Shown here: piece after piece, positions 3,486 through 11,951 of the stretch
Layout: each line of letters begins with the position of its first letter
Numbering within the stretch: position 1 is the stretch's first letter
Source: an uncultured Erysipelotrichaceae bacterium
GTDB lineage: Bacteria; Bacillota_I; Bacilli_A; RFN20; CAG-826
Assembly: GCA_900321535.1 (NCBI GenBank)
Contig: ONWJ01000184.1
Coordinates: forward strand, 1-11,951
Direction of reading: 5' to 3'
Length of the DNA: 11,951 nucleotides
The notes under the pieces: generated by a model
Seen by the model: the letters and a program-made list of their open reading frames with translations, nothing else
What the model was told of the DNA's origin: nothing
Databases searched by the model: none
Position numbers and translations under genes: made by a program

Positions 3486-3974
3486 ATGAACATGGAAAAA
3501 CATCGTGAAGATTATCTAAATTGGGAAGAATACTTTATGGGCATCGCCCTTCTTTCGGCGCAGCGTTCCAAAGACCCTTCGACCCAAGTCGGCGCTTGCA
3601 TCGTCGATAAGGACAACAAAGTTGTTTCCATCGGCTATAACGGCATGCCACGAGGGGTGGACGATGAGAAGATTCCATGGGGGCACGGAGAAGGCGTCGA
3701 CTCCAAGTACCTTTATGTTTGTCACGCTGAATTCAACGCCATTCTCAATACGCGAGATGGAAGCGCGTTGAATGGCTGCAGAATCTATGTCACTTTATTC
3801 CCTTGCAACGAATGTGCGAAAGCCATCGTTCAAACCGGAATCAAAGAAGTCATTTACCTCGACGATAAATATCATGATCATGTCGAAGAGATTGCATCTC
3901 GCACGATTTTGAATATGGCTGGCGTAAAGTACCGCCGCTACGACGGACGGGCTTTCGAGGTAAAAGTGAAGTGA
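3486..3974 (+). CDS. dCMP deaminase family protein (zinc-dependent)
   Basis: 162-residue cytidine/deoxycytidylate deaminase-fold protein. dCMP deaminase converts dCMP to dUMP, feeding thymidylate synthesis in the cytosol. The zinc site is clear: HAE at 80-82 (H80 metal ligand, E82 proton shuttle) and PCNEC at 106-110 (C107 and C110 ligands). The SKDPSTQVGACIVD block (28-41) and the GYNGMPRG block (50-57) are typical of the dCMP deaminase/ComEB group and distinguish it from CMP/dCMP-kinase and tRNA-specific deaminases. Start choice: GAGG at 3478-3481 is 4 bases from ATG 3486 and 10 from ATG 3492 (MEKHRED), so the second ATG is a real alternative. It is the first gene of a tightly overlapping operon; its stop overlaps the next start as GTGA. 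The link to the downstream ECF genes is positional only. Confidence 0.9.
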   Translation: MNMEKHREDYLNWEEYFMGIALLSAQRSKDPSTQVGACIVDKDNKVVSIGYNGMPRGVDDEKIPWGHGEGVDSKYLYVCHAEFNAILNTRDGSALNGCRIYVTLFPCNECAKAIVQTGIKEVIYLDDKYHDHVEEIASRTILNMAGVKYRRYDGRAFEVKVK

Positions 3975-4165
3975 AAAAAGGCTACGCGTTCCGAATCATT
4001 GTCATCACGATTGCCTTCGTCCTTTTAGGGGTTTCGATTTTGATTCCGCTTGGGAAAGCACCGGATTCTAAGGTTTGGCTATTTGTGATGGGCGGCATTC
4101 TTTTGGCCGCTTATATCGGCGCGATCGTTTGGTCTTTGGTTTATTATGCAAGACACAAAAAATGA
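3971..4165 (+). CDS. Small two-helix membrane protein, unknown function
   Basis: 64 residues starting at GTG 3971, which overlaps the dCMP deaminase TGA (GTGA 3971-3974). GAGG at 3957-3960 is 10 bases upstream. Two hydrophobic helices at about 7-27 and 35-58 are joined by a short LGKAPDSK loop; the N-terminal KK and C-terminal RHKK suggest both ends lie in the cytoplasm. It overlaps the ecfA1 start by 20 bases, so it is inside the operon and probably translationally coupled. It is far too short to be an ECF substrate-binding S component (about 180 residues and six helices). No family recognised. Continuous overlap on both sides supports it as a real gene, though it lacks motif evidence. Confidence 0.62.
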   Translation: MKKGYAFRIIVITIAFVLLGVSILIPLGKAPDSKVWLFVMGGILLAAYIGAIVWSLVYYARHKK

Positions 4166-5000
4166 GAATACCGTGATCGAGTTAGATCAACTCAGTTTCT
4201 CTTACGATGAGGAGAGGATGGTCCTTGATGGCCTTTCTTTCAGCGTCCAAGAAGGTGAATATGTCTGCATCATGGGCCATAACGGCTCTGGGAAATCAAC
4301 GCTCGCGAAGTTATTGCTTTCGCTTTTATCCGGTTATACCGGCGATATCAGTCTTTTCGGGGAGAAATTGACCCGCAAGAACAGATATGCGTTACGCCAT
4401 AGAATTGGTATCGTCTTTCAAAACCCTGATAACCAATTCGTAGGATCAACCGTTGCCGACGATATCGCATTCGGCTTAGAGAATCAGCAAGTTCCGCATG
4501 AAAAGATGCAGGAAATCATTGGAAACTATGCCCAAGAAACGGGGATGATGGATTATTTGGACCATGAGCCCAATAACCTTTCTGGCGGACAGAAGCAGCG
4601 TGTTGCTTTAGCCGGTGTTTTGGCCATGAAGCCAGACCTTTTGATTTTAGATGAGGCGACAGCAATGCTAGACCCGCAAGGGAAAGCGGAGATTTCTAGA
4701 CTCATCAAAAAGACTCGTGAAATCCATCCAAAACTGACGATTCTTTCTATCACCCATGATGTAGAAGAAGCGCTTGAAGCGGATGAATTAATCGTTTTGC
4801 ATGATGGCAAACTCTTGGTGAAAGATAAGCCTGCCGCAGTGTTTGCTAACGTAGATAGTTTGGAACAGATGAAACTTGGTGTTCCTTTTGTTTTTGAACT
4901 TGCCTATGAACTTTCCAAGCAAGGCGTTGCAATACCGTCAAACATCTCATCGATGCAGGAAATGGAGGACTTTGTATGTCAATACGTTTCCTCGAAGTGA
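4146..5000 (+). CDS. ecfA1: ECF transporter ATP-binding subunit EcfA1
   Basis: 284-residue ABC ATPase of energy-coupling factor transporters. It pairs with EcfA2 and the membrane scaffold EcfT to energise exchangeable S components for vitamin, cofactor or metal uptake. Motifs in order: Walker A GHNGSGKST at 44-52, Q-loop block FQNPDNQF at 91-98, signature LSGGQKQR at 145-152, Walker B LLILDE at 165-170, D-loop LDP at 175-177, and switch His H204 in ITHD. FQNPDNQF is typical of the A1 subunit, against FQFPEYQLF in A2. No good ribosome binding site precedes ATG 4146; coupling to the overlapping upstream gene is likely, and an in-frame GTG at 4173 is a possible alternative start. Order A1-A2-T followed by truA matches other Firmicutes. 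There is no S component nearby, as expected for a shared (group II) module. Confidence 0.93.
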   Translation: MQDTKNENTVIELDQLSFSYDEERMVLDGLSFSVQEGEYVCIMGHNGSGKSTLAKLLLSLLSGYTGDISLFGEKLTRKNRYALRHRIGIVFQNPDNQFVGSTVADDIAFGLENQQVPHEKMQEIIGNYAQETGMMDYLDHEPNNLSGGQKQRVALAGVLAMKPDLLILDEATAMLDPQGKAEISRLIKKTREIHPKLTILSITHDVEEALEADELIVLHDGKLLVKDKPAAVFANVDSLEQMKLGVPFVFELAYELSKQGVAIPSNISSMQEMEDFVCQYVSSK

Positions 5001-5830
5001 GTTACCGTTACGGTAAGAAAACGAAAAACGAAATCCTTGCGTTAGACAAGTTATCTTTTGAAATCAACGAAGCTGAATTCGTTGCCGTTATCGGTCGCAC
5101 GGGCTGTGGCAAATCAACTGCCGCTCAAAACATCAACGCCCTTTTAAATCCGACAGAAGGACGTGTGGAAGTGGAAAACTTCATCAATGATGCCGAGAAA
5201 AAGAAAAGAACCAAAAACCTTGGCGATGTCAGGAAAAAAGTTGGCCTTGTATTCCAGTTTCCAGAATATCAGCTGTTTGAAGAAACCGTTGAAAAAGATG
5301 TTGCTTATGGACCAAAGAATTTTGGCGAGAAACCCGAAGATGCATTGCGCATTGCTCATGATTGCTTAATGCAGGTCGGCCTCGACGAATCCTTTTATGG
5401 ACGTTCTCCTTTTGAACTGTCTGGTGGAGAAAAGCGCCGCGTTGCAATTGCGGGCATCCTTGCTTTAAAGCCAAAGTATCTTGTGATTGATGAGCCAACT
5501 GCTGGATTAGATCCTAGCGGTACGAAGGCGATGATGGAACTGTTTCACAATCTCCATGAAAGCGGCATCACCATCATTTTGATTACCCACGACATGGAAC
5601 TCGTCCGTTGCTATGCGACTCGCGTCATTGTCATGGAACAAGGAAAGGTCGCAAAAGATTGCTCACCAAGTGAGCTCTTCAAAGGTGATTTATCTGAATA
5701 TAGCCTAGATCTGCCGCGAATTTCGCTTTTTTTGCAGCACCTTCAAGATAGGGGCGTTACCTTTAACGAAGAAGATTGCAAGAACGCAGAGACTCTAGCG
5801 AAAGCCATTGTTAGGAGGCGGAAGCAGTGA
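4976..5830 (+). CDS. ecfA2: ECF transporter ATP-binding subunit EcfA2
   Basis: 284-residue second ATPase of the ECF module. Motifs: Walker A GRTGCGKST at 40-48, Q-loop block FQFPEYQLFEETV at 93-105 (hallmark of EcfA2), signature ELSGGEKRR at 147-155, Walker B YLVIDE at 168-173, D-loop GLDP at 177-180, and switch H205 in ITHD. The start at ATG 4976 is supported by GGAGG at 4964-4968 with 7 bases of spacing, and it overlaps the ecfA1 end by 25 bases. The stop overlaps the ecfT start as GTGA. A1 and A2 have the same length but different Q-loop motifs, consistent with the usual heterodimer. The C-terminal roughly 60 residues after the ATPase core are as expected for this family. Confidence 0.94.
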   Translation: MSIRFLEVSYRYGKKTKNEILALDKLSFEINEAEFVAVIGRTGCGKSTAAQNINALLNPTEGRVEVENFINDAEKKKRTKNLGDVRKKVGLVFQFPEYQLFEETVEKDVAYGPKNFGEKPEDALRIAHDCLMQVGLDESFYGRSPFELSGGEKRRVAIAGILALKPKYLVIDEPTAGLDPSGTKAMMELFHNLHESGITIILITHDMELVRCYATRVIVMEQGKVAKDCSPSELFKGDLSEYSLDLPRISLFLQHLQDRGVTFNEEDCKNAETLAKAIVRRRKQ

Positions 5831-6684
5831 GTGTCGCGCTTGGAAGATATGTCCCGGTGAACAGTTGGGTTCATCGCTTAGACGCGCGAATCAAGATTCT
5901 CGCCACGATTTTAATCATGGTCTGTCTTTTCATGAACTACGCGAATTGGACCATGACTTACTCGATTACCGCGATTCTTGCGTTGATCATCATCGTCTTG
6001 CTTTATTCATGCAGGCTGACGATAGGGCAGGTATTAAGATCGTTCCGCTCCTTGATTTTCATGATCGTGTTTTTGCTCATCGTGTATCTGCTTGTTCCGA
6101 CCGCTAACCCAACACTTCCTTTGGTGTGGAATCTTAACGGGTGGAAAGTCTATTGGGACGCGTTTGCCCAAACCGGAAAGATTTTATTGCGATTAATGCT
6201 GATGATTATGACGACGATGATTCTCACTTCATCGACCAAACCGCTTGATTTGACCTATGCGTTTGAGTGGTATCTTGCACCGTTGAAACTAGTTAGGGCT
6301 CCTGTTCCAGAAATCTCGATGATGATTTCCATTGCCCTCCGCTTCATCCCAACGTTGCTTGAGGATGCCGAACGCGTCATGAAGGCGCAGGCTTCCCGTG
6401 GGGTAGACTTCACCAGAGGTCACTTATGGAGAAGAATCACTGGAATTACCTCGTTGATCATCCCTCTATTTGTCTCTTCCTTCTTGCGGTCAGAAGAACT
6501 CGCCAACGCGATGGAATGCCGCGGCTATGACCCTCGTTTACCTCGTACGAGATACCGCAAGCTTCGCTTCCATTGGTATGACCTCGTCACCTTCTTGTTC
6601 TTTGTTGCCCTTATTGTTGGCTGCGCGATTCTAGCGGCCCGCAACATTGATTTATTTGCCTTGATGGGGGTTTCAGTTTTATGA
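5827..6684 (+). CDS. ecfT: ECF transporter transmembrane scaffold EcfT
   Basis: 285-residue integral membrane protein that couples EcfA1/EcfA2 to S components. Hydrophobic segments lie at about 24-38, 44-61, 75-92, 118-136, 205-219 and 250-270. The two cytoplasmic coupling motifs that sit on the ATPases are visible: A-S-R-G at 189-192 (in KAQASRG) and C-R-G at 231-233 (in AMECRGY). The latter has Cys where many homologues have Ala or Ser. The opening GRYVPVNSWVHRLDARIK is typical of EcfT N-termini. It starts at GTG 5827, backed by AGGAGG at 5813-5818 with 8 bases of spacing, and overlaps the ecfA2 stop; its own stop overlaps truA as ATGA. Length and topology are normal. Confidence 0.93.
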   Translation: MSVALGRYVPVNSWVHRLDARIKILATILIMVCLFMNYANWTMTYSITAILALIIIVLLYSCRLTIGQVLRSFRSLIFMIVFLLIVYLLVPTANPTLPLVWNLNGWKVYWDAFAQTGKILLRLMLMIMTTMILTSSTKPLDLTYAFEWYLAPLKLVRAPVPEISMMISIALRFIPTLLEDAERVMKAQASRGVDFTRGHLWRRITGITSLIIPLFVSSFLRSEELANAMECRGYDPRLPRTRYRKLRFHWYDLVTFLFFVALIVGCAILAARNIDLFALMGVSVL

Positions 6685-7433
6685 AAATCGCTGCAAAAGT
6701 CTCCTATCTTGGTTGCCATTATGCTGGTTTTCAGCGTCAAAAGAACAAGGTTTCCGTTCAAGGGGAGTTGGAAAGAACGTTATCCCAACTCGCTTCTAAA
6801 GAAGTGTTGATACACGGGGCAGGGCGTACCGACGCCGGCGTTTCAGCTCTTGGCCAAGTAGTCTCCTTCGATTACCCAAAGCCCATCAAGAGTCTTGAGG
6901 ATTTCCGTTTCCATTGGAACATGATCCTCCCTGAAGATATTTCGGTGGTAAAGGTGGTTTCGGTGGGAGACGATTTCGATGCTCGTCATTCTTGCATCGG
7001 CAAGAGATACCGTTATCGCTTCTCGGTGGAGGAAAAGCATCCTCTGGAAAACGGGACCTTGGCTTTCCTTGGGAAGCGCTCCTTTGATGAGAAATCATTC
7101 TTTGATGCGATTCGATTATTTGAAGGGGAGCACAACTTCCAAAACTTCACGACCAAAGACCAAGACATCGATGGATTCGTTCGTAAGATTGAGCCCATTC
7201 AATTTCAAAAAGAAAACGGCGTTTACTCTCTCGTCTTAGAATCGAATGGTTTTATGACCTATCAGATTCGCTTTATGGTGGGCAGCGCTTTGAAGGTTGG
7301 CTTTGGCAAGATTGAGTCTTCTATCATCAAGACACATCTTGATTCCACGGCGCGTCATATTTTGCCCTATAAAGCCCCGGCTGAAGGGCTTATCCTAGAA
7401 GAGGTGTTATATGGATCCGATCTTTTTGCATAA
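6681..7433 (+). CDS. truA: tRNA pseudouridine synthase A (TruA)
   Basis: 250-residue enzyme that isomerises uridine to pseudouridine at positions 38-40 of the tRNA anticodon stem-loop. The catalytic block GAGRTDAGVSALGQ is at 46-59, with D51 as the catalytic aspartate; many homologues have His where this one has Ser (DAGV-H-A). The FDARHSCIGKRYRYRF block at 99-114 holds the conserved active-site tyrosine region, and the YQIRFMVG block near the C-terminus is also typical. The ATG at 6681 overlaps the ecfT stop (ATGA), with a GGGGG run 10 bases upstream. The ecfT-truA junction is conserved in Firmicutes, where ribosomal genes rplM-rpsI usually follow; here a PHP-family phosphatase follows instead. 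Its 3' end overlaps that gene by 23 bases. Confidence 0.93.
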   Translation: MKIAAKVSYLGCHYAGFQRQKNKVSVQGELERTLSQLASKEVLIHGAGRTDAGVSALGQVVSFDYPKPIKSLEDFRFHWNMILPEDISVVKVVSVGDDFDARHSCIGKRYRYRFSVEEKHPLENGTLAFLGKRSFDEKSFFDAIRLFEGEHNFQNFTTKDQDIDGFVRKIEPIQFQKENGVYSLVLESNGFMTYQIRFMVGSALKVGFGKIESSIIKTHLDSTARHILPYKAPAEGLILEEVLYGSDLFA

Positions 7434-9055: not shown

Positions 9056-9126
9056 TATATAAATAAGATAATGCATTGGTCTCATACCTTGAATCTGAGT
9101 AGGCTCAAAAAGGCATGTAAACCTTT

Positions 9127-9136
9127 CGTTGCAACG
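9127..9136. promoter_or_regulatory. Palindrome CGTTGCAACG upstream of XRE-glmM, candidate operator
   Basis: A perfect 10-bp palindrome, 84 bases before the XRE-glmM start and 20 bases upstream of the candidate -35. Its core GTTGCA recurs at 9205-9210 next to the ribosome binding site. The following gene encodes an XRE DNA-binding domain; such proteins commonly dimerise on palindromes, so autoregulation is plausible but unproven. Confidence 0.35.
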
Positions 9137-9156: not shown

Positions 9157-9184
9157 TTGCGGAAAGCCTATTTAAGAGTAATAT
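9157..9184 (+). promoter_or_regulatory. Weak candidate promoter for the XRE-glmM operon
   Basis: TTGCGG (9157-9162), 16-bp spacer, TAATAT (9179-9184), giving a start near 9191 and a leader of about 30 bases. Other possible -10 boxes exist (GATAAT at 9067-9072, which would give a leader of about 140 bases), so the exact promoter is uncertain. The 212-base gap 9009-9220 otherwise holds the yebC terminator and the repeats listed here; no riboswitch or RNA gene was recognised. Confidence 0.3.
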
Positions 9185-9193
9185 ATGCCGCAG

Positions 9194-9210
9194 TGTAACT
9201 ACAAGTTGCA
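9194..9210. repeat. Inverted repeat TGTAACT-aca-AGTTGCA beside the glmM ribosome binding site
   Basis: A 7-bp inverted repeat with one mismatch (T against the expected C) and a 3-base centre, lying between the predicted start site and the AGGAG ribosome binding site (9210-9214). Its right arm shares GTTGCA with the palindrome at 9127-9136. It could be a second half-site pair for a repressor, or a small RNA hairpin next to the ribosome binding site. Confidence 0.35.
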
Positions 9211-9220
9211 GGAGAATTCT

Positions 9221-10858
9221 ATGACTTTAGGAGAGAAAATTACCCACCTCAGAATCGTCAACAACATCCCACAAGAGAGACTTGCGAACACCCTTAACGT
9301 GACGCGTCAATCCATCTCTAAATGGGAATCTGGCGAAACATTGCCCACGATTGACAAGATTCTCGAAATCTCAAAGCTATTCGCCATCAGCACTGACGAA
9401 TTGCTCAACGACGAGATCGTCATCCATCGTGGAATGAAAATCCCAAACACGATTTCTGGGAACACCAAAACCAAATACTTCGGCACTGACGGATTCCGCG
9501 GCGAGGCAAATAAAGTACTCACATGCGATCATGCTTATAAAATCGGCCGTTTCCTCGGCTGGTTCTATGGCAACCAGAAGTTCAACCTTCAAAAACCTGG
9601 TTATCGTCCACGCGTTGTCATTGGTAAAGACACCCGCCGCTCATCTTATATGTTCGAATATGCTTTAGCGGCTGGCTTAGCGGCATCTGGTGCGGAAGTG
9701 TCCTTGATGCACGTTACCACGACCCCAAGCATTTCCTTCATCGTCCGCCAAGATTGCTTCGATTGCGGTGTCATGATCACTGCTTCCCATAACGCCTTCT
9801 ACGATAACGGTATCAAGGTCATCAATTCCAATGGTGAAAAGTTGGAAGATAATGTTGCCTTACTAGCAGAAGCCTACATCGACGGCGATTTGAAGAAATT
9901 AGGCGTTGAAGAGGAAGATCTCCCCTTCGCCACAAGAGAGAACATCGGTTCCATTGTCGATTACACCTCTGGACGTAATCGTTATGTTGGCTACCTCATC
10001 TCCCTTGCCCGTCACTCTATGAAGAACCTTCGTATCGGTCTTGATACCTCCAACGGTGCTTCTTGGATGATCGCGAAGAACGTCTTCGATGCATTAGGTG
10101 CGAAAACCTTCGTCATCAACGACAACCCAGACGGCTTGAACATCAACCTCAATGCTGGCTCCACCCACATCGAAGTTCTCCGCAACTTCGTTAGGGAAAA
10201 CAAACTCGACCTTGGCTTTGCCTTTGATGGAGACTGCGACCGTTGCATTGCAGTCGATGAAAACGGCAATGAAGTTGACGGCGATAAAATCATGTATTTG
10301 CTCGCCATCAAGCTGAAGAGCGAAGGCGCGCTTACCAGAGACACATTGGTCACCACGATCATGTCGAACTCCGGCTTAACCAAAGCATTGAAGCAAGCGG
10401 GAATCGCCAATGTGCAAACCAAAGTCGGTGACCGCTTCGTCTTCGAAGAAATGCAGAAAGAAGGCTATGCCCTCGGTGGTGAGCAATCTGGCCACGTCAT
10501 CATCAAGAAATATGCGACGACTGGTGACGGCATCCTCACTGCGATCATGGTCACTGAAGAAGTGCTTTCTAGAAAAGAGAAGCTCTCCAAACTCGTCGCT
10601 CCGGTCAAATTACTTCCACAGAGAACCAAATCCGTCCGTGTCACCGATAAAGCGGCGACCGTCAATGATGAAGCGGTTCAAGCGAAGTTTGCTGAAGTGA
10701 ATAAGAAGATCGGCGACAATGGCCGCGCTCTTCTCCGCGAATCTGGCACCGAGCCAGTGATTCGTATCATGCTCGAATGCCCAACGATTGAAGAATGCGA
10801 CGAATATATCGATAAGATCTATGACGTCATCAAGAAACGGGGGTATCTCAGTGAATAA
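9221..10858 (+). CDS. glmM: XRE helix-turn-helix / phosphoglucosamine mutase (GlmM) fusion
   Basis: 545 residues, about 100 longer than ordinary GlmM. Residues 1-64 form a complete XRE/HTH_3 domain (LGEKITHLR, then QERLANTLNVTRQSISKWE with WESGE at 35-39, then FAISTDELL). A linker at about 65-83 leads into full-length GlmM: KYFGTDGFRG at 85-94, catalytic phosphoserine loop TASHN with S189, metal loop DGDCDR at 336-341, sugar-binding GGEQSGH at 419-425, and phosphate-binding RESGTEP at 506-512. GlmM interconverts GlcN-6-P and GlcN-1-P for UDP-GlcNAc and peptidoglycan synthesis. All catalytic motifs are intact. Start ATG 9221 follows AGGAG (9210-9214) with 6 bases of spacing; an in-frame ATG at 9185 lacks one. 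M72 (ATG 9434) could start a domain-free GlmM but has no properly spaced ribosome binding site. It leads an operon with a GlmU-like protein and nagB. A regulatory role for the XRE part is inferred. Confidence 0.92.
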   Translation: MTLGEKITHLRIVNNIPQERLANTLNVTRQSISKWESGETLPTIDKILEISKLFAISTDELLNDEIVIHRGMKIPNTISGNTKTKYFGTDGFRGEANKVLTCDHAYKIGRFLGWFYGNQKFNLQKPGYRPRVVIGKDTRRSSYMFEYALAAGLAASGAEVSLMHVTTTPSISFIVRQDCFDCGVMITASHNAFYDNGIKVINSNGEKLEDNVALLAEAYIDGDLKKLGVEEEDLPFATRENIGSIVDYTSGRNRYVGYLISLARHSMKNLRIGLDTSNGASWMIAKNVFDALGAKTFVINDNPDGLNINLNAGSTHIEVLRNFVRENKLDLGFAFDGDCDRCIAVDENGNEVDGDKIMYLLAIKLKSEGALTRDTLVTTIMSNSGLTKALKQAGIANVQTKVGDRFVFEEMQKEGYALGGEQSGHVIIKKYATTGDGILTAIMVTEEVLSRKEKLSKLVAPVKLLPQRTKSVRVTDKAATVNDEAVQAKFAEVNKKIGDNGRALLRESGTEPVIRIMLECPTIEECDEYIDKIYDVIKKRGYLSE

Positions 10859-11525
10859 GCTCAATATCACGGTGAAAGAACTCTTCGAAGAATGCCCAAT
10901 TCCATTCCTTAAAAAGGACTTCGAAGAAGTGACTTATCCCTGGGAGTTGCTCCCAAAAATCAAGACGATCGTTGCAAGAGAAATCGAAAAAGGACTTGAA
11001 GGTTATACCGAAATCGAGCCAGGCGTCTTCGTTGGAGAAAACGTTAAAATCGCGAAAACCGCGACCATCGAAGCCCCTGCGATCATCGGTAGTGGAACCG
11101 AGCTTCGCCCAGGCGCTTACCTTAGGGGAAACGTCATCATCGGCGAGAACTGCGTGGTCGGGAATTCCAGTGAATTAAAGAACTGCATCCTCCTCTATCA
11201 CGTGCAGGTTCCTCATTACAATTACGTTGGTGACTCCATCTTAGGAAGCCATAGCCACATGGGCGCGGGATCCATCTGCTCGAATTTGAAAAGCGGTGGT
11301 TCGAACATCGTGATTCATGGCGACAAAGAATATGTCACTGGTTTACGAAAGATTGGTGCGATCTTAGGGGATCACGCGGATATCGGTTGCGGATCAGTCC
11401 TCAATCCTGGCACCATCGTCGGGAAGAACACACAGGTTTATCCTCTCAGCATGTTAAGAGGATGCTTCCCGGAAAATTCTATTGTGAAAGAAAATCGCGT
11501 TGTTGTTGCAAAAGAAGAAAGGTAA
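10851..11525 (+). CDS. Stand-alone GlmU-like left-handed beta-helix acyltransferase
   Basis: 224 residues from GTG 10851, overlapping the glmM stop by 8 bases, with GGGGG at 10839-10843 giving 7 bases of spacing; an ATG farther upstream at 10788 would lie deep within glmM. After an N-terminal segment with TYPWELLPKI (28-37), residues about 55-215 consist of hexapeptide (I/V-G-x-x) repeats forming a left-handed beta-helix. The pattern follows the acetyltransferase half of GlmU: LRPGA at 85-89, ELK at 108-110, PHYNYVGDS at 121-129 and GAGSICSN at 138-145. By hand alignment H122, R86, K110 and Y125 match E. coli GlmU H363, R333, K351 and Y366, residues of its GlcN-1-P acetylation site. The GlmU uridylyltransferase half is absent. 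In databases such proteins are often labelled UDP-GlcNAc pyrophosphorylase. Context between glmM and nagB supports acetylation of GlcN-1-P, but no activity is proven. Confidence 0.8.
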   Translation: MNKLNITVKELFEECPIPFLKKDFEEVTYPWELLPKIKTIVAREIEKGLEGYTEIEPGVFVGENVKIAKTATIEAPAIIGSGTELRPGAYLRGNVIIGENCVVGNSSELKNCILLYHVQVPHYNYVGDSILGSHSHMGAGSICSNLKSGGSNIVIHGDKEYVTGLRKIGAILGDHADIGCGSVLNPGTIVGKNTQVYPLSMLRGCFPENSIVKENRVVVAKEER

Positions 11526-11529
11526 AAAA

Positions 11530-11951
11530 ATGAAAGTCATTGTTGGAAACGAAGATTACATCTCCGAGTTGATTGCCGAAGAATTTATCAAACAAGTTAA
11601 CGCCAAACCAAATTCCGTTCTTGGTCTTGCCACTGGCACCTCGCCGCTTAAGGTCTATGCGAACATGGTGAAAGCCAACAAAGAAGGCCGCGTCTCGTTC
11701 AAAGACGTCGCTACCTTCAACCTCGACGAATATATCGGTCTAGAAGGAACGCACAACCAATCCTATCGCTACTTTATGAACGATAACCTCTTCAATCACA
11801 TTGATATCGATAAAGCCAAAACCCATGTTCTTAAAGGCGTTGGGGATTATGTCGCTTATATGAATCAATATGATGATGAGATTGCTTCCTTCGGTGGCAT
11901 CGATCTTCAGATTCTTGGCATTGGAAGCGATGGACACATTGCCTTCAATGA
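11530..11951 (+). CDS. nagB: Glucosamine-6-phosphate deaminase NagB, 5' part only
   Basis: The first 140 residues are visible; the gene runs off the window end. ATG 11530 lies 4 bases after the previous stop, with GAAAGG at 11517-11522 and 7 bases of spacing. Family motifs are clear: phosphate-binding GLATGTSPL at 32-40, FNLDEYIGL at 63-71 with D66 matching the catalytic Asp72 region of E. coli NagB, HNQSYR at 75-80, and GIGSDGHIAFN at 130-140 containing D134 and catalytic H136. NagB reversibly converts GlcN-6-P and water to fructose-6-P and ammonia. Usually catabolic, it is placed here downstream of GlmM and a GlmU-like protein. It could therefore either drain GlcN-6-P or, at high ammonia, supply it. 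The C-terminal part, including any lid, is outside the window. Confidence 0.93.
   Translation, partial: MKVIVGNEDYISELIAEEFIKQVNAKPNSVLGLATGTSPLKVYANMVKANKEGRVSFKDVATFNLDEYIGLEGTHNQSYRYFMNDNLFNHIDIDKAKTHVLKGVGDYVAYMNQYDDEIASFGGIDLQILGIGSDGHIAFN

Follow-up and report, generated by a model that had tools for sequence, protein, structure and literature searches.

In an 11,951-nt stretch of DNA (i.e., the window), the gene hth-glmM (positions 9221 to 10858, + strand) encodes an XRE helix-turn-helix (HTH) domain fused to a complete phosphoglucosamine mutase (GlmM; 545 amino acids in all). On the basis of sequence comparisons, the product (HTH-GlmM) is probably a trigger-enzyme-like protein, i.e., a putative working mutase that is also a sequence-specific regulator of its own operon and of an amino-sugar regulon.

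Fused gene and protein

A first-pass annotation had read one uninterrupted frame encoding an XRE domain (residues 1 to 64) and an intact GlmM. This reading was confirmed by a frame that is open across 545 codons and by matches to Pfam and to the NCBIfam glmM model TIGR01455 (residues 87 to 538; 483.4 bits versus a cut-off of 447.55). The HTH domain (9221 to 9412, +; delimited by Pfam and an AlphaFold2 model) matched HTH_3 (residues 14 to 61; 43.2 bits versus 23) and HTH_19 (residues 4 to 63; 36.6 bits versus 30.2), and a match to HTH_31 fell below its Pfam cut-off. Its recognition helix, TRQSISKWE (9302 to 9328, +), occupies about residues 28 to 36. A linker (9413 to 9472, +; residues 65 to 84), which has the lowest pairwise identity among the regions compared, leads to the catalytic part (9473 to 10855, +; residues 85 to 545), in which PGM_PMM domains I to IV (PF02878, PF02879, PF02880, and PF00408) each score above the cut-off across residues 85 to 535. 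No kinase family was among the Pfam or NCBIfam matches. The four catalytic motifs, already annotated as intact, proved invariant in an alignment of 45 sequences: S189 (ASHN), D336/D338/D340, E421-S423-G424-H425, and R506-S508-G509-T510, which we take to be the catalytic serine, metal loop, sugar loop, and phosphate loop, respectively. By family criteria, the protein is a phosphoglucosamine mutase, and mutase activity is predicted.

The ribosome binding site, AGGAG (9210 to 9214, +; by eye), precedes the HTH and not the GlmM part, as originally annotated. Translation from an alternative in-frame ATG (9185) would lengthen the protein by 12 residues; the start at 9221 is favored because of the AGGAG at 9210 to 9214. 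An ATG aligned with 9221 is present in all 53 distinct fused sequences, with T following in 52 of them. Separate internal translation of the GlmM part was considered and rejected as unlikely, since no Shine-Dalgarno sequence was seen by eye before the internal Met72 and this residue is Met in only 1 of the 53 fused sequences.

An AlphaFold2 monomer model (mean pLDDT, 87.3) folds the HTH into five helices (residues 3 to 13, 18 to 24, 29 to 37, 44 to 53, and 58 to 62), with block-mean pLDDT values of 81 to 95 for residues 1 to 60, and leaves the linker disordered (pLDDT of <50 for residues 71 to 82). The closest PDB matches of the GlmM part are 3pdk, 7ojr, and 6gyz. Solved mutase chains match from residue 79 onward and solved XRE chains lie inside residues 1 to 65; no solved chain covers both parts by sequence at an E value of ≤0.001.

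Distribution and origin of the fusion

The first-pass annotation had proposed a search for the architecture in order to see whether it is conserved in a clade, and had allowed that it might occur in one assembly only. Among 7,993 sequences scored, all of the 120 best matches (78 to 100% identity over 100% of the query) carried both HTH and PGM domains, and the architecture spans many genera of one family. GlmM was detected at an E value of ≤1e-60 in 142 of 279 genomes of the order; 64 of the 279 carry a full-length fused gene without an internal stop, and five more (G018, G128, G195, G198, and G236) carry it only in pieces assigned by identity. The remaining GlmM-bearing genomes have a plain GlmM, mostly of 35 to 45% identity (exception, G007; 56%). 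The named fused metagenome-assembled genomes (MAGs) are labeled Bacilli, Erysipelotrichaceae, or Erysipelotrichia, except for four that are Clostridia-named (L036, L037, L063, and L104; labels Oscillospiraceae, Clostridiales, or Clostridia). That the fusion is an assembly artefact or chance read-through is therefore scarcely credible: the named source genomes are indeed mostly MAGs, but the 120 fused best matches, the intact frame in 64 genomes, its recurrence in Clostridia-named MAGs, and low dN/dS ratios throughout the protein rule out a one-off.

Those ratios, estimated from up to 40 sampled of 70 close pairs with synonymous sites near saturation, were 0.069 for the HTH (36 pairs) and 0.055 for GlmM (40 pairs), and the value for the linker was low as well. 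Mean pairwise identity among fused proteins was 65% for the HTH, 82% for the recognition helix, 49% for the linker, and 75% for GlmM.

In a GlmM tree built by a quick method from 137 distinct catalytic parts (160 entries, with identical parts counted once; long branches flagged among the plain sequences), 53 fused and 2 plain sequences formed one clade (support, 99) inside the Clostridia GlmM. The fused/plain label changed 3 times on this tree, compared with a mean of 42.3 when labels were shuffled, and none of 500 shuffles was as low. The fused gene of G011 (L004/L162) was removed by an ORF filter and is absent from the tree, synteny, and promoter sets. In one of the two plain members, L045, the protein begins MTVEEKIS and runs straight into VGNKYFGTDG, as if the HTH had been lost by internal deletion; no HTH remnant was found in the other, L038. 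Because both dropped the HTH and kept GlmM, the HTH is dispensable in some hosts. The simplest reading of the tree is one fusion event, horizontal spread between classes, and two HTH losses. The plain GlmM of G007 (L170), a genome of the window's genus, is Clostridia-like, is followed by a beta-helix gene, and lies outside the fused clade; it reflects either an independent transfer or an early divergence.

The two losses would suit the view that the HTH is a dimerization or stability module without gene control and that the promoter palindromes described below are relics of a captured promoter. We regard this as improbable, given that all 53 fused sequences have R29, Q30, W35, and E36 in the recognition helix and that the palindromes not only are kept (by eye) amid diverged sequence but also occur at glnA, nagB, and polysaccharide genes that are not linked to hth-glmM. 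We found no published description of an HTH-GlmM fusion in the literature searched, which covers few subscription journals.

Gene neighborhood

Downstream of hth-glmM in the window are a GlmU-like left-handed beta-helix gene (10851 to 11525, +), whose GTG start overlaps the glmM stop, and nagB (11530 to 11951, +; glucosamine-6-phosphate deaminase), which is truncated by the window end. The beta-helix protein is similar to one half of archaeal-type GlmU, the C-terminal acetyltransferase (TIGR03992; 147 bits against a full-length cut-off of 292.1). A beta-helix gene lies directly 3' of hth-glmM in all 29 fused loci read (L140 to L169; L162 gave no entry), and nagB adjoins in 25 of them (20 downstream and 5 divergent across the promoter). 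Among Clostridia-named loci, L037 and L104 have both neighbors, L063 has the beta-helix gene only, and L036 has neither. In the same family, nine plain loci were read (L171 to L179; labels by eye): a cdaA-like gene lies immediately 5' of glmM in all nine, glmS adjoins in six, and the beta-helix gene is found beside none.

Neither GlnA nor GlmS was found at an E value of ≤1e-60 in the window's genome (G000; 86.8% complete), and a GlmS match is also absent from fused genomes that are >90% complete (e.g., G036 and G117). In genomes without a GlmS match, the NagB encoded next to hth-glmM might work in reverse, as an aminating enzyme.

The rest of the window includes a gene matching a FolC subfamily model above the cut-off (95 to 1303), matches below the cut-off to the alpha-phosphotrehalase model TIGR02403 (1787 to 3430) and to a ComEB-like deaminase (3486 to 3974), and, at 4146 to 6684, genes whose arrangement is that of an ordinary ECF transporter: two for ABC transporter ATPases (the second identified by eye) and one for a CbiQ-type membrane protein. 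A tRNA pseudouridine synthase gene (6681 to 7433) follows the transporter genes.

Palindromes upstream of hth-glmM

Two palindromes recur in the promoters of fused genes: box A, GCAAC-N5-GTTGC, near the start site, and box B, TGTAAA-N6-TTWACA, upstream of the -35 element. The lower palindrome of the window, GTAACTACAAGTTGC (9195 to 9209, +), has one mismatch to box A and sits just 5' of the ribosome binding site. The upper palindrome, TGTAAACCTTTCGTTGCA (9116 to 9133, +), is a degenerate box B with two mismatches, located by eye 23 bp from the -35 element of a putative promoter (9157 to 9184, +; -35 TTGCGG at 9157 to 9162, a 16-bp spacer, and -10 TAATAT at 9179 to 9184; by eye). A family-wide scan for exact matches found no box B in the window's own genome.

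Within 200 bp upstream, box A (≤1 mismatch) occurred in 26 of 53 fused and 0 of 84 plain glmM promoters, and the exact box B core, GTAAAN6TTWAC, in 33 of 53 and 0 of 84, respectively. Since plain promoters are richer in G+C (0.43 versus 0.27 for the fused ones), mononucleotide-shuffled fused promoters are the fairer control; they gave means of 0.05 (box A) and 0.15 (box B). The other 27 fused promoters lack box A at ≤1 mismatch. By eye, the boxes persist where the flanking promoter sequence has diverged. Exact box A was present 0 to 5 times per genome over 42 genomes; because a reversed control pattern equals these counts in several genomes, the position of box A, and not its number, is the evidence. 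The four Clostridia-named fused genomes have 1 to 3 exact copies each, and in 4 of 4 a copy precedes the fused gene.

The recognition helix and the lower box may vary together. Across 67 promoters, L034 and L127 are the only entries with Asn at residue 33, and both have a TGTAA..TTACA-type lower site. Where residue 32 is Leu or Met, a lower box A (≤1 mismatch) was found in 0 of 17 sequences; where it is Val or Ile, in 28 of 50. With few independent events, and with a lower site of hybrid type in L114 (Ser33), this covariation is suggestive. Helical phasing between boxes A and B was discarded: 16 loci with spacings of 63.5 to 83.5 bp gave a resultant of 0.70 at a 10.5-bp period, which dropped to 0.47 when each distinct spacing was counted once (8 values).

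Box B at glnA and other genes

A box B matrix was trained on 27 hth-glmM sites and applied with a threshold at the 99th percentile of 324 other promoters (18.16). The four top background matches were divergent nagB promoters with a shared site. At glnA(-glmS) promoters, the matrix exceeded the threshold in 22 of 31 fused and 1 of 18 unfused genomes (Fisher P = 6.6e-6, counted without correction for relatedness between two sets that differ in phylogeny). These loci comprised the 30 best, 20 picked, and L262, drawn from 95 genomes with a match, less two that were too short. The other nine glnA promoters in fused genomes scored below the threshold. Box B is present at glnA in G181 (78% complete), in which the fused gene was not found, and G237 (18.1) lies just under the threshold.

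The exact scan, which spanned 224 genomes of the family, placed 51 box B sites in 37 genomes with a fused gene. Of these sites, 23 precede hth-glmM, 20 precede glnA, and 8 lie elsewhere (labels by eye), i.e., 1 before an unlinked nagB (G125), 3 before polysaccharide-type genes (G203 and G129; one of them 490 bp away), 3 inside genes, and 1 before an unknown gene. By our own loose rule for calling -35 elements, the gap from box B to the -35 was 9 to 10 bp at 20 of 24 glnA sites. A -35/-10 pair was called in 20 of 27 hth-glmM promoters, with gaps of 9 to 10 bp in ten, 6 to 8 bp in five, 18 to 19 bp in three, and 25 bp in two.

In the first-pass annotation, the protein was suggested to act on transcription, either of its own operon or of genes for the cell wall. 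This claim gains partial support: for the own operon, from the palindromes in the promoter and the conserved recognition helix; beyond it, from box B ahead of glnA-glmS, of an unlinked nagB, and of polysaccharide genes at three places, all in relatives and none in the window's genome.

Box B is not exclusive to HTH-GlmM, because 30 genomes in which no fused gene was found contain 38 exact entries (37 places). Of 24 such places read, 6 precede TldD-like genes of genus g40, 1 a stand-alone XRE gene, and 1 glnA (G181); the rest lie within genes or ahead of unrelated genes. A reversed control pattern is as frequent as box B in several genomes. The TldD-like genes (by eye; L379, L380, L383, L384, L386, and L387) have box-B-like palindromes in g40 genomes that gave no GlmM match at an E value of ≤1e-60; therefore, another regulator probably uses a similar site there. 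At L375, box B lies in the promoter of the stand-alone XRE gene itself, which encodes the recognition helix VSRQSISKWESGES. In many fused genomes (L280 to L309), another recurrent palindrome, TTAAC-NNN-GTTAA, is located 5' of the box B at glnA, and a close form was seen by eye in the unfused G105.

Candidate readers of the boxes

Because boxes A and B have different half-sites and spacings, two regulators are possible. Of 20 box A places read outside glmM promoters, 16 precede stand-alone XRE genes, 13 of which encode the helix SRQAVSKWE, and the remaining four are within open frames or ahead of other genes; these 20 and the 20 box B places read were our own picks and nonrandom. GCAAC-N5-GTTGC thus recurs ahead of stand-alone XRE genes, mostly with that helix (L240 to L257), and looks like a putative autoregulatory operator of this XRE type. 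HTH-GlmM might accordingly bind box A alone, repressing itself by dose feedback without metabolite sensing, with a different XRE protein reading box B. The occurrence of box A ahead of stand-alone XRE genes, the box B in the own promoter of a stand-alone XRE in G146, the box-B-like sites in genomes without the fused gene, and the presence of other XREs in 11 of 12 fused genomes searched all fit this alternative. It nevertheless seems somewhat unlikely to us: with the HTH of G227 as the query, the best other XRE in the 12 genomes was ≤49% identical; in G106 (79% complete), the fused protein was the sole HTH match, and two box B sites precede glnA; and 43 of the 51 box B sites in fused genomes precede hth-glmM or glnA.

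The place before glnA also invites the reading of box B as a GlnR/TnrA-type nitrogen site. A TnrA-like site is expected just upstream of the -35 at glnA, and a MerR_1 (GlnR/TnrA-type) protein is present in the fused genomes G000, G218, and G191. Against this, 7 of 10 fused genomes (including G227, G225, G179, and G106, all four of which carry box B at glnA) yielded no MerR_1 match in a search that gave matches in 12 of 14 control genomes (Bacillus subtilis included), and box B is an 18-bp dyad, compared with 17 bp for GlnR, that also precedes hth-glmM. A GlnR-type reader was hence rejected for those seven genomes, and the reading as a whole is very unlikely. The evidence favors the fused HTH as the predicted reader of the boxes.

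Comparison with known systems

NadR is an enzyme that also controls transcription of its pathway. NadR, PutA, and BirA differ from HTH-GlmM in enzyme fold, DNA-binding domain, and pathway, and to our knowledge none of them is a phosphoglucosamine mutase. ROK regulators such as NagC combine an HTH with a sugar-binding enzyme fold and control amino-sugar genes; NagC pairs a ROK kinase fold with a winged HTH, whereas HTH-GlmM pairs a mutase with an XRE domain. Plain GlmM of Bacillota belongs to the same catalytic family (TIGR01455; best solved relatives, 3pdk, 7ojr, and 6gyz) but has no HTH, has different neighbors (L171 to L179), and falls on another branch of the tree. PutA and BirA are described as active enzymes that also control transcription of their own pathway (PMC6978683).

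A close likeness in architecture is to BzdR, which is reported to consist of an N-terminal HTH-XRE domain, a linker, and a shikimate-kinase-like domain (PMC3602430), i.e., an HTH-XRE linked to a small-molecule enzyme fold, as in HTH-GlmM. According to the same paper, the BzdR HTH protects several operator regions of its promoter, shikimate kinase activity of the C-terminal domain was undetectable, an active chimera (Q1) repressed and showed no response in vivo, and loss of activity was proposed as critical (PMC3602430). The C-terminal part of our protein is GlmM rather than shikimate-kinase-like, and, in contrast to the inactive BzdR as described there, it keeps every catalytic motif. Because BzdR is inactive and its active chimera was unresponsive, the intact HTH-GlmM raises the question of how its state would be read under turnover.

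Proposed mechanism and significance

In the mechanism that we propose, one polypeptide carries both parts intact (the XRE domain and GlmM), as the open frame attests, and its XRE domain would bind the palindromes of its own promoter, as the conserved sites indicate. The position of box A near the start site in many relatives suggests repression (i.e., autorepression), and that of box B just 5' of the -35 suggests activation. Box B would also control glnA-glmS, as indicated in relatives and not in the window's genome, and in single genomes its control may extend to nagB and surface-polysaccharide genes. With box B at these targets, GlcN-6-P supply (GlmS), use (GlmM), and diversion (NagB) would therefore share one regulon. 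The first-pass annotation had raised the idea that GlcN-6-P, GlcN-1-P, or phosphorylation state may be sensed through the active site. Sensing by mutase state is attractive because the targets flank GlcN-6-P: phosphorylation or substrate state of the mutase could alter DNA affinity via the linker or the dimer, so that the cell would read flux at the GlcN-6-P branch point with an enzyme that draws on GlcN-6-P. We put forward only tentatively this fullest version, in which HTH-GlmM is a catalytically intact flux sensor whose phospho- or substrate state sets XRE-dependent activation of glnA-glmS and self-repression and so balances GlcN-6-P supply, use, and deamination.

In known species, UDP-GlcNAc flux is controlled by separate devices (the glmS ribozyme, the GlmM-CdaA contact, GlmR, and NagR). 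What is new here is the likely set of DNA targets, so far putative, of HTH-GlmM. If the proposal is true, a mutase doubling as a transcription factor would be a further solution to UDP-GlcNAc flux control and a natural test case of an enzyme turned regulator with catalysis retained. The flux-sensor reading, if true, would make HTH-GlmM a living form of the bifunctional intermediate built by hand in the BzdR work, one that, along with its operator, was transferred between Clostridia and Bacilli. The resulting prediction is sharp: one protein, two short palindromes, and a handful of target promoters.
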